Positions 1 to 6,310 of a stretch of 21,343 nt of DNA are shown in pieces. This DNA is from a virus. A program made the translations under genes and the position numbers. Numbering within the stretch: the stretch's first letter is position 1; the number at the start of each line of letters is the position of its first letter. Under the pieces are notes generated by a model, which made no database searches, had not been told where the DNA came from, and was given only the letters and a program-made list of their open reading frames with translations. The stretch is taken from positions 1 to 21,343 of IMG/VR virus record IMGVR_UViG_3300025646_000452. One strand, 5' to 3'.

Positions 1-14
1 TTAACGAAAATCAT
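1..14 (-). CDS. Possible start of a further gene cut by the left edge
   Basis: An ATG at 14..12 overlaps the TGA stop of the sigma-like gene in an ATGA arrangement, as at several other gene joints in this window. Only four complete codons (M-I-F-V) are present before the edge, so nothing can be said about the product. The call rests on the coupling pattern alone. Confidence 0.3.
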
Positions 15-445
15 ATCCTCTCTTTTATTGCCTTGCGTGAACGGTGCAAGCTGTGGTTTATTGTGTTTATGCTTATCCCGCTTTCGTGTGCTAACTTGGT
101 GAGATTCACACCGCTAATATACAACTCAAAGAGCAATCTATCAAACTCTGGGAGTAACCTCACCGCTTCGTCTATCTTTTCCCGATTGACGATTTTCTCT
201 GTGTTGAACTCCTCTGCAATATCGAAATTTAACTCTACCGTGTTGTCCTTTATTTTGCGGCTTAGTCGCTTTATTGTGGTGGTAAAGTAAACATCCGAAA
301 GGCGGTCGTTTATGTAAGTGAAGTTAGCTTCCACCGCTTTAATATACGCCTCGTGTACGATGTCCTCGCCTTGCTTGCTGTGCTTGTTTGCGTAGTCAAT
401 TAAGTAGTTTAACCGCCGTTCGATATATTGGTTTAGTGCATCCAC
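11..445 (-). CDS. Sigma-70/ECF-like transcription factor
   Basis: This 144-aa protein has the layout of a small sigma factor. Near the N-terminus (about residues 27-40) is E-D-I-V-H-E-A-Y, like the region 2 helix of ECF sigma factors (Q-D-x-x-Q-E/D-x-F). The C-terminus has a region-4-like part: R-L-L-P-E-F-D-R-L-L-F followed by a helix-turn-helix, L-A-H-E-S-G-I-S-I-N-T-I, and a basic tail. In sigma factors this part reads the -35 element. Region 2 looks short and diverged, so it could instead be a region-4-only activator. It is the last complete gene of the operon behind the promoter at 2387-2416, and its start lies 13 nt inside the 3' end of the secreted-protein gene. That placement would suit a late-gene switch. 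Sigma-like fold fairly likely; late-gene role inferred. Confidence 0.65.
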   Translation of the reverse strand: MDALNQYIERRLNYLIDYANKHSKQGEDIVHEAYIKAVEANFTYINDRLSDVYFTTTIKRLSRKIKDNTVELNFDIAEEFNTEKIVNREKIDEAVRLLPEFDRLLFELYISGVNLTKLAHESGISINTINHSLHRSRKAIKERI

Positions 446-882
446 AATCTAATTGAGCCATCCAAGTAAACTATTTCCACCCACCACGTTTTTAAGGGGC
501 AATCGAACTGTTCATCTATTACCGTGGGTTTGACAACGGCGAAATACGCGTCGGGGTAACTCGCCGGCCATCCCGACGACGCGATATATTCCACATCCAA
601 CAAACACGGGTCGAAGTCATAGTGTTGGCCGTACCCACTCAAAACCGAAGTAAGGTCTGTAACGTCAACCGCGCCGCTTCCGTTGAAGTCGTAAATAAGA
701 GGGCTTTCCAACCCATAACGGGCGAGGAATTTAAGTACGCCGCTGGCGTTAAAGTAAAACGTATTCACGCCGTTTTGCTCCACTCGGTAAACGTCGCCTG
801 TTCCTGTGCATTCGCACATATTAAACTGCGCTGTAAGGTTATAGCTTATCGCGATAAATAAGAAGAAGGTCGGCAATTTCAT
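433..882 (-). CDS. Secreted protein with dockerin-like calcium loop
   Basis: This 149-aa protein begins with a clear Sec signal peptide (M-K-L-P-T-F-F-L-F-I-A, cleavage likely after A18). Residues 65-76 form an EF-hand/dockerin-type loop with D65, N67, S69, A71, D73 and D76 at the calcium-coordinating spacing, followed by D-L-x-x-V-L-S-G-Y-G. A second, degenerate copy of the tail (K-F-L-A-R-Y-G, about 51-57) precedes it, as in the two halves of type I dockerins. Several cysteines (C23, C25 and others) suggest an exported fold. The signal-peptide codons overlap the 3' end of the NinG-like gene by 44 nt. Such a protein is unexpected between a recombination nuclease and a sigma-like factor. It may be a moron gene acting on the host envelope or on superinfection; the function is unknown. 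Confidence 0.65.
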   Translation of the reverse strand: MKLPTFFLFIAISYNLTAQFNMCECTGTGDVYRVEQNGVNTFYFNASGVLKFLARYGLESPLIYDFNGSGAVDVTDLTSVLSGYGQHYDFDPCLLDVEYIASSGWPASYPDAYFAVVKPTVIDEQFDCPLKTWWVEIVYLDGSIRLWMH

Positions 883-1201
883 GCTCGTGGAGTTTGGTAG
901 TTTTTTGGCTCTTGCGGTGCAATTCGTTTGCTTTTCCTTTGCCGTAAACCTCGTCCAACTTCACCCTGTACGCTTCTAAATTGCCGCCTAAATTTATATT
1001 GCAATGGCTGCATTGTGGGTGAACGTTTTCTTCATCCCACCGTGTAGCGGTGTAATATCTGGTTACGTAGTGTCCTGCGTGCATCACCTTCCAATGGTGT
1101 TTTACTCCGCACGTAAAACAGGCGACAAAACCTTTATGGTCTGCCGACGACTGCCGCACATATTGACTGAACACTTTGTCGAGAACGCTCTTTAATTTCA
1201 C
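839..1201 (-). CDS. ninG: NinG/Rap-like recombination endonuclease
   Basis: This 120-aa protein matches the lambda NinG (Rap) pattern. It has C28-x2-C31 in C-F-T-C-G, then H-A-G-H-Y-V-T-R (H41-R48), then D-E-E-N-V-H-P-Q-C with C64-x2-C67-N, and G-G-N-L-E-A-Y-R. The four cysteines and the AGHY histidine resemble a zinc-stabilised HNH-type centre. Lambda Rap is a structure-specific endonuclease acting on D-loops and Holliday junctions. It overlaps the small gene upstream by 68 nt and the secreted-protein gene downstream by 44 nt, so several joints here are overprinted. With the RecE-like exonuclease, VRR-NUC and NinB-like proteins it forms a phage recombination set. The family call is strong; activity is inferred from the motifs. 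Confidence 0.88.
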   Translation of the reverse strand: MKLKSVLDKVFSQYVRQSSADHKGFVACFTCGVKHHWKVMHAGHYVTRYYTATRWDEENVHPQCSHCNINLGGNLEAYRVKLDEVYGKGKANELHRKSQKTTKLHEHEIADLLLIYRDKL

Positions 1202-4641: not shown

Positions 4642-5311
4642 TTGAACGGCTTATCCATCCGGCGGCTGCGGACTTCCACTTCTGCATTTTGTTTTTACCC
4701 ACGCGCCACCCGTTTGAATCGTAGTAGTTGAAGAATTTAGACGCCTCTTGTGGGTAGCCCTGCGCTTGGAAGTATAGTTCGCACTCTTGCAAGGTAGGAG
4801 GAATAAATCGCGCCGCGCCACTTTGTTTTTTTTGAGGTGGGTTAATTGGTTCTCCTTCCGAATCGAACTCTTCGAGGTCATCCGCACTTGTGCGCCCCTC
4901 TCTATTCGATGTTCTATTCGATGTTCTATTATATTCTCTATTATGTAAGGGGGTGTCATTTTGCACTCCCACCAGTGCATTTTCACACTCCCCCCCGTGT
5001 AAATCTACACTCCCCCCAGTGCAATTTTGCACCACCCCCGTGGGGTAATTTTGCACCCCCTTCTCTGACATACTAATTTCTCGGCGGTTTCCATCCTCGA
5101 TGCGTATCTCAATTAACCCTTTTGCCGCTATTGTGCGCAGGTTCTTTTTGGTCTTGTCAACACTCCATCCGAGCAAACTCGCGAGGGTCGCGTTGGTGGC
5201 GAAACAGTAGCCCTGCTGTTGGCTCAATGAACCCAATACCACAAGCATAATTTTCTCGCTGTCGCTCAAATCTTTTCGCTCTATCATAATTTTTTCGGCT
5301 TTGTAGAACAT
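4526..5311 (-). CDS. Winged-helix replication initiator with embedded origin repeats
   Basis: This protein is 261 aa. Residues about 10-75 form a winged helix: D-L-S-D-S-E-K-I-M-L-V-V-L-G, then A-T-N-A-T-L-A-S-L-L-G-W-S, then L-R-T-I-A-A-K-G-L-I-E-I-R-I. This fits phage replication initiators that bind origin repeats. The C-terminal part (about 190-235) has F-F-N-Y-Y-D-S-N-G-W-R-V-G-K and W-K-S-A-A-A-G-W, a pattern shared with DnaD-like and replisome-organiser C-termini. Between them is a low-complexity linker (about 85-145) encoded by the DNA repeats at 4953-5061 and the AT-rich stretch at 4901-4947. A later ATG (M9, 5287) is an alternative start. The gene follows the structured leader and terminator at 5323-5410, so it is probably attenuated. 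Confidence 0.8.
   Translation of the reverse strand: MFYKAEKIMIERKDLSDSEKIMLVVLGSLSQQQGYCFATNATLASLLGWSVDKTKKNLRTIAAKGLIEIRIEDGNRREISMSEKGVQNYPTGVVQNCTGGSVDLHGGECENALVGVQNDTPLHNREYNRTSNRTSNREGRTSADDLEEFDSEGEPINPPQKKQSGAARFIPPTLQECELYFQAQGYPQEASKFFNYYDSNGWRVGKNKMQKWKSAAAGWISRSNDYIKPNNNGKQQPVTEQIMRDIADDIANGGWNFAEGA
4901..4947. repeat. AT-rich stretch with 12-bp direct repeats, candidate unwinding element
   Basis: The plus strand has two exact 12-bp copies of TCTATTCGATGT (4901-4912 and 4913-4924), a third partial copy starting at 4925, and then further TCTATT-like and TATT-rich sequence. It sits directly beside the iteron-like repeats, as the AT-rich unwinding region does in lambda ori. The repeats are in frame and encode a short R-T-S-N repeat in the linker. 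Confidence 0.55.
4953..5061. repeat. Five iteron-like repeats inside the initiator gene, candidate replication origin
   Basis: Five 14-bp cores start at 4953, 4975, 4997, 5019 and 5043 on the plus strand, with consensus GTGYA-AWTT-TRCAC followed by a C-run. Spacing is 22, 22, 22 and 24 bp, about two helix turns. Two cores are perfect dyads with different arms (GTGTA/TACAC at 4997-5010, GTGCA/TGCAC at 5019-5032), so the arms covary. Spacing of 22 shifts the reading frame by one each time. The repeat is therefore conserved as DNA rather than as peptide. This is the layout of iterons within an initiator gene, as in lambda O. Confidence 0.72.
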
Positions 5312-5322
5312 TCTTGAAAATT

Positions 5323-5366
5323 AAAAACCCCTGCAAGGTGCGGTGGCTGTCGCATCCCTGCAAGGG
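5323..5366 (-). terminator. Strong intrinsic terminator just before the initiator start
   Basis: In the minus-strand RNA, an 11-bp stem (5366..5356 with 5338..5328, two G-U pairs) is followed by one bulged A and a 4-bp stem UGCG/CGCA (5354..5351 with 5342..5339). The loop is ACAGCCAC (5350..5343). Five U residues follow (5327..5323). It lies between the promoter at 5413-5442 and the ATG at 5311, so it acts either as an attenuator or as the end of a small RNA. Confidence 0.8.
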
Positions 5367-5410
5367 TTTAGGGTCTTTACCCAGTTCTTTCCGTCGCAGC
5401 CACTCGACGG
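5323..5410 (-). ncRNA. Structured leader or small RNA with complementary hairpin loops
   Basis: Transcription from the promoter at 5413-5442 should start close to 5410 and would give an RNA of about 88 nt ending at the terminator. Hairpin 1 is CCGUCG/CGACGG (5410..5405 with 5396..5391) with loop AGUGGCUG. Hairpin 2 is GGGU/ACCC (5382..5379 with 5374..5371). Hairpin 3 is the terminator, with loop ACAGCCAC. Loop 1 contains GUGGCUG and loop 3 contains CAGCCAC, a perfect 7-nt complement. This suggests a kissing-loop contact within one RNA or between two copies. No known RNA family is recognised. Confidence 0.6.
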
Positions 5411-5412
5411 TT

Positions 5413-5442
5413 CAAATATAGTAATTTATCAATTTGGAGCAA
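5413..5442 (-). promoter_or_regulatory. Bacteroidetes-type promoter for leader RNA and initiator
   Basis: On the minus strand, TTG (5442..5440), a 19-bp spacer and a perfect TATATTTG (5420..5413) are present. The spacing is identical to the promoter at 2387-2416. It overlaps the 3' end of the acidic-protein gene and points directly into the structured leader. Confidence 0.72.
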
Positions 5443-5767
5443 CTGAATTATACGGTTTGTATAACTTTTTCATGTTCTCATTGATGTCGTCTTCATTGAC
5501 CATGTAACAATCAATTAAGTCAACTCCCCATAAAGCAAGGTCGTACAATTCTTCCTCGGTCAATACTGACGGGTCATCAAGTTTTACCAACAAACTGCAC
5601 GTTATGTTGTATGGAAATTTTTCTTCGTAGTGGTATTGTACGCCTGTAATTTTTGCGTCAAACCAAACTCCGTCATCGTCGTAATCTGGCTTTGGTGCGT
5701 TCTCAATATCGTACAATTTAACGGAGCATCTTGCTCCAATGAAATCTTCAAAATTATTACTAATCAT
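5429..5767 (-). CDS. Acidic hypothetical protein
   Basis: I do not recognise this 112-aa protein. It is acidic (several D and E runs, for example P-D-Y-D-D-D-G and E-E-E-L-Y-D-L-A), with alternating beta-like stretches such as W-F-D-A-K-I-T-G-V-Q-Y and C-S-L-L-V-K-L. No signal peptide or membrane segment is present. It starts 10 nt after the stop of the small helix-turn-helix gene and is the last gene of the operon from the 7147-7175 promoter. Its final codons contain the next promoter (5413-5442). Confidence 0.7.
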   Translation of the reverse strand: MISNNFEDFIGARCSVKLYDIENAPKPDYDDDGVWFDAKITGVQYHYEEKFPYNITCSLLVKLDDPSVLTEEELYDLALWGVDLIDCYMVNEDDINENMKKLYKPYNSVAPN

Positions 5768-5777
5768 AAAACTAAAA

Positions 5778-5993
5778 TTAACGGTTAATAATTACATCGT
5801 ACAATTCCTGCACACTTACTTTCGTGTGTTCGTGCAGTTCCGGTAGGTACTTCAATAAGTTGCGCCTTTGGTCGCGTTTCAAAATTAGGCGGCTCATTGT
5901 CATCTCGCTCAATCCTAAATCCCGCGCCGCTTGTCCTTGACTTCCGTAATGGTCGCGCAGTAAGATTACCAATTTATCTTTATGAAACCCCAT
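5778..5993 (-). CDS. Small helix-turn-helix DNA-binding protein
   Basis: This 71-aa protein has one clear helix-turn-helix: G-S-Q-G-Q-A-A-R-D-L-G-L-S-E-M-T-M-S-R-L (about residues 17-36), similar to Fis/XRE-type DNA-binding units. A basic segment follows (K-R-D-Q-R-R-N). There is no dimerisation or sensor domain beyond the last 30 residues. It overlaps the preceding helix-turn-helix gene by 28 nt. It may repress the early promoters or bind an operator such as 2415-2429; neither is shown by the sequence. Confidence 0.75.
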   Translation of the reverse strand: MGFHKDKLVILLRDHYGSQGQAARDLGLSEMTMSRLILKRDQRRNLLKYLPELHEHTKVSVQELYDVIINR

Positions 5994-6310
5994 AACAATT
6001 CTATTTTATTTCGTTTGTACTTCGGTTCGTTTGGCCGCACTTGCGCTGCGGGTTGTCGCTTGCGTTCTTGGATAAACTTCATCTTAGCTTGCTGAACGTG
6101 CAAGTAAGGTACGGCGCGTTGTATTTTTTGGTCCGTCTGTCCGTTTAAATATCGTTGATATGCCAAATGATATTTGTAAACGGTTATGTGGCTTAAATTA
6201 AACTTGTGCGCTATCTCGTAATGATTCACACCTCTATTTACCATGTCGTAAATAATTGGTAACGCTTCGGCTAATTGTTTGCCGTTCATTCTGTTTATTG
6301 ACTTTCTCAT
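5966..6310 (-). CDS. Helix-turn-helix DNA-binding protein
   Basis: This 114-aa protein has a helix-turn-helix at about residues 25-47: R-G-V-N-H-Y-E-I-A-H-K-F-N-L-S-H-I-T-V-Y-K-Y. It is followed by a long basic tail (K-R-K-R type residues between about 75 and 105). The pattern resembles transposase or replication-type helix-turn-helix domains that read short repeats. Its ATG overlaps the OB-fold-like gene by 4 nt and its 3' end overlaps the next helix-turn-helix gene by 28 nt, so the two regulators are made together. Confidence 0.7.
   Translation of the reverse strand: MRKSINRMNGKQLAEALPIIYDMVNRGVNHYEIAHKFNLSHITVYKYHLAYQRYLNGQTDQKIQRAVPYLHVQQAKMKFIQERKRQPAAQVRPNEPKYKRNKIELLWGFIKINW

Follow-up and report, generated by a model that had tools for sequence, protein, structure and literature searches.

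The replication initiator gene of a 21,343-base virus record (the whole stretch of DNA analyzed here, referred to as the window) is preceded by a short leader RNA in which the loop of the first hairpin and the loop of an intrinsic terminator are perfectly complementary over 7 nt. We found that this complementarity is kept, with changed letters, in two further leaders of a closely related phage. The leader probably represents a self-cognate transcription attenuator of the replication initiator gene with a changeable 7-nt code, a reading to which we assign a probability of roughly 0.6. It combines the elements of attenuators in general, namely a promoter, an alternatively pairing leader, an intrinsic terminator and a downstream gene in the same direction. 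The plausible genes of the window are all encoded on the minus strand, among them genes for tail, portal, recombination and replication functions. Nothing in these 21 kb indicates a temperate phage, and no integrase was noted among the genes.

The features of the leader are given in Table 1. The promoter motif TTG-N19-TATATTTG is found twice in the window against 0.32 matches expected by chance. The -7 box of the leader promoter is perfect and its -33 element is GTTG instead of TTTG; the promoter, described as perfect in the first-pass annotation, is thus good rather than perfect. The -7 box of Flavobacterium psychrophilum has been mapped at -12 to -5 (PMC9723704), and by the same geometry G5408 would be the +1 position. 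An RNA of about 86 nt would result that begins inside the stem of hairpin 1, leaving 4 bp of this stem from the first base on. The three hairpins proposed earlier were also given by RNAfold, and the five U of the terminator are present, but its stem comprises 18 bp with one bulged A rather than 15 bp. The minimum free energy of the leader is -43.7 kcal/mol, compared to -26.8 +/- 3.7 kcal/mol in dinucleotide shuffles (z = -4.6, RNAfold). For two random 8-nt loops of matched composition, the probability of at least seven contiguous matches is about 0.0015 per loop pair. Given three hairpin pairs, the 7-nt match in this one sequence, which had been reported from the first reading, is suggestive rather than decisive.

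Table 1. Leader and downstream gene in the window, and loop pairs of the window leader and of the two leaders (copies A and B) of the related phage.
Feature	Position	Strand	Sequence or description	Basis
Leader promoter, Bacteroidota-type	5442-5413	(-)	TTG-N19-TATATTTG	Motif matches
Hairpin 1	5410-5391	(-)	CCGUCG/CGACGG (DNA CCGTCG/CGACGG)	RNAfold
Loop 1	5404-5397	(-)	8 nt, AGTGGCTG = A-GUGGCUG	RNAfold, alignment
Hairpin 2	5382-5371	(-)	Small, middle; GGGU-AAAG-ACCC	RNAfold
Intrinsic terminator hairpin	5369-5325	(-)	18 bp and one bulged A	RNAfold
Loop 3 (terminator loop)	5350-5343	(-)	ACAGCCAC = A-CAGCCAC, complement of loop 1	RNAfold
Terminator U-tract	5327-5323	(-)	Five U	Sequence
Replication initiator gene	5311-4526	(-)		HTH_36 N-terminus; O-like/DnaD-like phrogs
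Loops 1/3, window			AGUGGCUG/ACAGCCAC; pairing GUGGCUG/CAGCCAC	
Loops 1/3, copy A			AGUGGUCG/ACGACCAC; pairing GUGGUCG/CGACCAC	
Loops 1/3, copy B			GGUCGCAG/ACUGCGAC; pairing GUCGCAG/CUGCGAC	

A search of IMG/VR with the initiator yielded one close relative only, contig 3300025646_001435 (L006), the initiator of which has an N-terminus 94% identical to that of the window. Comparison with the window revealed a second leader-like stretch in this contig. Copy B precedes the initiator. Copy A has a 71-aa HTH gene on one side and, on the other, a 125-aa gene that is unrelated to the initiator and absent from the window. In the window, an unrelated 112-aa gene sits between the HTH gene and the single leader. 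All three leaders lie immediately 5' of a start codon (in the window, the initiator ATG follows the G-run of the terminator by 16 nt), and two unrelated genes are served. The 112-aa (window 5429-5767) and 125-aa (L001 4462-4839) genes occupy the same slot adjoining the leader and are mutually unrelated; neither has a Pfam match over the cut-off or a PADLOC match.

In each of the three leaders, positions 2-8 of loop 1 pair perfectly and in the same register with positions 2-8 of loop 3. Pairs were counted in an alignment of the three leaders (A1) with the kissing helix entered as a pseudoknot. The kissing cells are all paired (21/21, 100%) and three of the seven columns show a double-sided change: one from G-C to C-G, one from C-G to U-A, and a third in which U-A, C-G and A-U all occur. 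Over the structure as a whole, neither the observed percentage of paired cells nor the covariation score is reached in any of 500 shuffles, and sliding by 1-3 columns abolishes the covariation signal. Because the sample consists of three sequences from two closely related phages, and relatedness inflates shuffle tests, we base the claim of covariation on the double changes themselves. Two random changes in loop 3 would hit the right positions and letters with a chance of about 1/189 per comparison with the window (our own arithmetic; two comparisons). It is very likely that the loop-loop pairing is a selected function of the leader RNA. A check of the covariation of loops 1 and 3 in relatives had been proposed in the first-pass annotation; it turned out positive in both further leaders, and no relative was found that has the hairpins but lacks loop complementarity.

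The -7 box and the stem of hairpin 1 are common to the three leaders, except for one outer C-G pair of this stem that is lost in copy A. Loop 1 of copy A is partly taken up by a weak inner pair. The promoter of copy B is the full consensus TTTG-N19-TATATTTG, while copy A has TTG-N21-TATATTTG. The middle hairpin of copy B is UGGC/GCCA, and its terminator has the same form with most of the stem sequence replaced. A third, degenerate leader was suspected near position 7810 of the relative, which on checking was not a leader. We also observed a short ATG frame (MRQPPHLAGVF..., window 5284-5355, minus strand) that starts in GATGCGA within the 5' arm of the terminator. This heptamer is common to all three leaders, though the stem of copy B differs, but a conserved leader peptide encoded by the frame in all three leaders is too near the terminator to convince.

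The window and its relative share about 87-93% DNA identity across long stretches. The leader blocks have 40-46 identical positions out of 60, versus 53-59 out of 60 in the initiator, with the pairing kept. The protein p114 (5966-6310, minus strand) is 72% identical between both phages, compared to 94-98% for its neighbors, and the divergence is concentrated in the N-terminal, HTH-like half (an HTH assignment below the Pfam cut-offs). As far as two phages can indicate, a joint switch of regulator and RNA code would correspond to the pattern of an immunity region.

The predicted energies of the cognate loop duplexes range from -11.0 to -11.8 kcal/mol. Five out of six non-cognate duplexes have energies between -3.4 and -6.4 kcal/mol, the exception being loop 1 of copy B with loop 3 of copy A, which reaches -9.0 kcal/mol in a different register. 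By this measure of duplex energy, the two leaders of the related phage are largely, not fully, orthogonal. A structural scan without sequence anchors, covering 572 kb and 70 loci (many overlapping), found the combination of promoter, matched loops and terminator in these three leaders only, together with three other loop-matched hits that have no promoter.

Pattern scans of viral contigs anchored on hairpin 1 and on the terminator gave no leader beyond the relative; 14 other matches of a hairpin 1-anchored scan are without leader structure. A scan of genome contigs gave a single match, attributed to chance, which falls within the coding sequence of a dnaB-like gene from a Helicobacteraceae MAG. 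Protein searches with the initiator, the portal protein, p128, HTH71 and the 125-aa gene product did not yield a third phage with the leader. More distant initiators (L002, L003, L051-L058, G003) mostly share the C-terminal domain, and no such leader accompanies them. There was no match for the leader in a phage collection (blastn) or for the initiator among plasmids. We did not find the arrangement described in the open-access literature, which is weak evidence of absence as most subscription papers fall outside this scope.

Another TATATTTG promoter is present at window 8197-8115 (minus strand); the 80 nt or so after it hold a hairpin capped by UUCG and a strong terminator with a U-tail. This element is conserved in the related phage, with TATCTTTG, and its loops are not complementary to each other; it is possibly a small RNA or the end of an operon. 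The window also encodes a NinG/Rap-like protein (839-1201, minus strand) and, at its end, a Sigma-70 region 4-like protein (11-445, minus strand; weak Pfam match, phrog_1740) that is perhaps a late regulator.

The order in which the leader may fold was followed in growing prefixes, using the minimum free energy as a crude stand-in for kinetics. In all three leaders, hairpins 1 and 2 form first, and at an RNA length of 72 nt the best fold is a long-range duplex between loop 1 and loop 3 (-23 to -24 kcal/mol). At this length, loop 3 has already been made and the 3' arm of the terminator has not, hairpin 1 is open, and loop 1 is paired with loop 3, as is a neighboring CG. The terminator fold prevails only from 78-84 nt. 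In the mature fold both loops are mostly open, with an unpaired probability of about 1.0 for loop 3. The prefix folds and the free loops of the finished RNA suggest an antiterminating intermediate and a released RNA that competes in trans.

We therefore propose the following model. Transcription, whether initiated at about 5408 or running in from upstream early genes, would produce hairpin 1 and then the 5' arm and loop of the strong terminator. As long as the 3' arm of the terminator has yet to be made, the nascent loop 1 and its 3' flank would pair with the segment of loop 3, and this would delay or block the terminator so that the initiator is transcribed. When transcription stops instead, an RNA of about 86 nt would be freed with both loops open. 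Its loop 3 could occupy loop 1 of a later nascent RNA (or its loop 1 a nascent loop 3), by which the nascent pairing would be lost and termination favored. Replication initiation would thereby be braked in a dosage-dependent manner, and cross-regulation would take place between phages that have the 7-nt code in common but not between those with different codes.

The likeliest mechanism is a self-cognate replication attenuator with at least some action in trans, somewhat better than an even proposition in our judgment; the trans step taken by itself is an even one. An influence of the pairing on termination, the direction of this influence, and an action in trans in addition to that in cis are predictions of the model, and the effect could also be restricted to cis or could favor termination instead. 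Against the attenuator stands the finished terminator (about -42 kcal/mol for the whole RNA), which far outweighs the long-range duplex, so that antitermination would require fast kinetics or an additional factor. The first-pass annotation had suggested an attenuator, a trans-acting small RNA, or both. This proposal is compatible with all evidence and is kept as the preferred frame, in which we infer termination, readthrough and trans action.

Among the alternatives, a folding switch that operates in cis only survives best, although we consider it rather unlikely. Loop 1 would pair with loop 3 of the same RNA, as a kissing interaction or a long-range duplex, and set the efficiency of the terminator without any trans RNA; a ribosome, a protein or the speed of the polymerase might modulate the outcome. 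The passage of the nascent folds of all three leaders through the loop duplex fits this switch, as do the fixed spacing of the loop segments (54-55 nt) and the largely orthogonal codes that one phage carries in its two leaders, which could reflect a requirement that each leader respond to itself alone. However, such a switch could work with unchanged pairing letters, codes that vary being more typical of specificity between molecules, and by our own estimate kissing within a single molecule looks sterically tight given a stem of 18 bp and a short linker.

It is improbable that the element is a stand-alone small RNA gene with another target and that the downstream gene is fed only by leaky readthrough. 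The terminator ends just 5' of the start codon in all three leaders, which makes the downstream gene always dependent on readthrough, and the changes in each loop have been seen to be followed only by its partner loop within that RNA; elsewhere in the window, the loop 1 sequence has no further copy on the minus strand and three on the plus strand. These points weigh against the short distance between promoter and terminator (only about 86 nt) and the occurrence of the element in two gene contexts, both of which would suit a small RNA gene.

An element acting at the DNA level, either an inverted repeat to which the initiator or an HTH regulator binds or a hairpin-extruding replication origin, would agree with the position next to the replication initiator and with the near-palindrome CCTTGCAGGG that is present twice in the arms of the terminator. 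Yet a protein site is expected to be alike in the copies of one phage, whereas copies A and B differ in exactly these letters. The match always comprises loop positions 2-8 and ends at the loop edges, and the promoter is positioned to transcribe the leader, which makes this explanation very improbable. A mutational artifact, whereby template switching between imperfect inverted repeats keeps the loops matched without selection, draws on the resemblance of the loop regions of hairpins 1 and 3 to weak inverted copies but is the least credible, as the matched segments are only 7 nt long and 47 nt apart, the flanks are not homogenized, and copy B still has matched loops after a wholesale exchange of its stem 3.

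The self-cognate attenuator can be compared with known systems. In the satellite phage P4, CI RNA pairs with seqA and seqC, leading to premature termination by which the replication genes are kept off (PMC4825925). Common to P4 immunity and the window are a short hairpin leader with an intrinsic terminator and RNA-RNA pairing of the same strand; the window leader likewise has complementary segments and a terminator before replication genes (initiator by phrogs). Read by eye, GUGAGAA and UUCACAGG of isrK/seqA face UUCUCAC and CCUGUGAA of CI. P4 has its antisense on an RNA of its own, which is processed and lies downstream of seqA, whereas in the window both target and antisense loops belong to one RNA of about 86 nt and the antisense loop is the terminator loop. 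Relatives of CI and seqA are detected by the C4 and isrK profiles (PMC10111431). There is no gathering match to Rfam in the window or in L006, and C4 (RF01695) and isrK (RF01394) are absent among the Rfam matches of the leader to E = 5, while P4, as a positive control, matches them with 74.9 and 60.8 bits in the same search. Weak matches of the leader to Ysr224, rli38 and the trpB motif are far below the cut-offs and attributed to chance. As far as Rfam profiles go, the leader is outside the C4/isrK family; it plausibly works like P4.

Attenuation of the pT181 type is similar in that an attenuator precedes a replication initiator and its state is set by loop-loop contact. The antisense RNA of pT181 is counter-transcribed, unlike in the window leader, where no RNA from the opposite strand is required; on that strand of the leader, read by eye only, no Bacteroidota-type promoter was noted. 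Engineered orthogonal versions of pT181-type attenuators exist (PMC3753616). Replication attenuators based on RNA pairing are known already, in two-RNA or processed-RNA forms, in some plasmids and in P4-like satellites. If our reading holds, the leader would be a very small attenuator with both partners in one RNA and with natural, largely orthogonal versions in one phage. It would then offer a ready-made natural set of orthogonal attenuators and, for Bacteroidota, a model of RNA-based phage incompatibility that can be tested directly. More tentatively, a single leader may be sensor and antisense effector at once, with the terminator loop as effector, and constitute a minimal single-RNA system of immunity and copy control, in which cross-regulation among phages or gene cassettes would depend on a freely changeable 7-nt code and a phage may hold two largely orthogonal copies.

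In ColE1, kissing loops of RNAI and RNAII, fully paired over about 7 nt, control replication, and changes of the code define compatibility. The likeness to ColE1 drawn at first reading is functional only, since the two RNAs of ColE1 come from opposite strands and the target of control is a replication primer, with neither a terminator nor an initiator protein involved. P4 CI/seqA and pT181-type attenuation are closer to the leader than ColE1.
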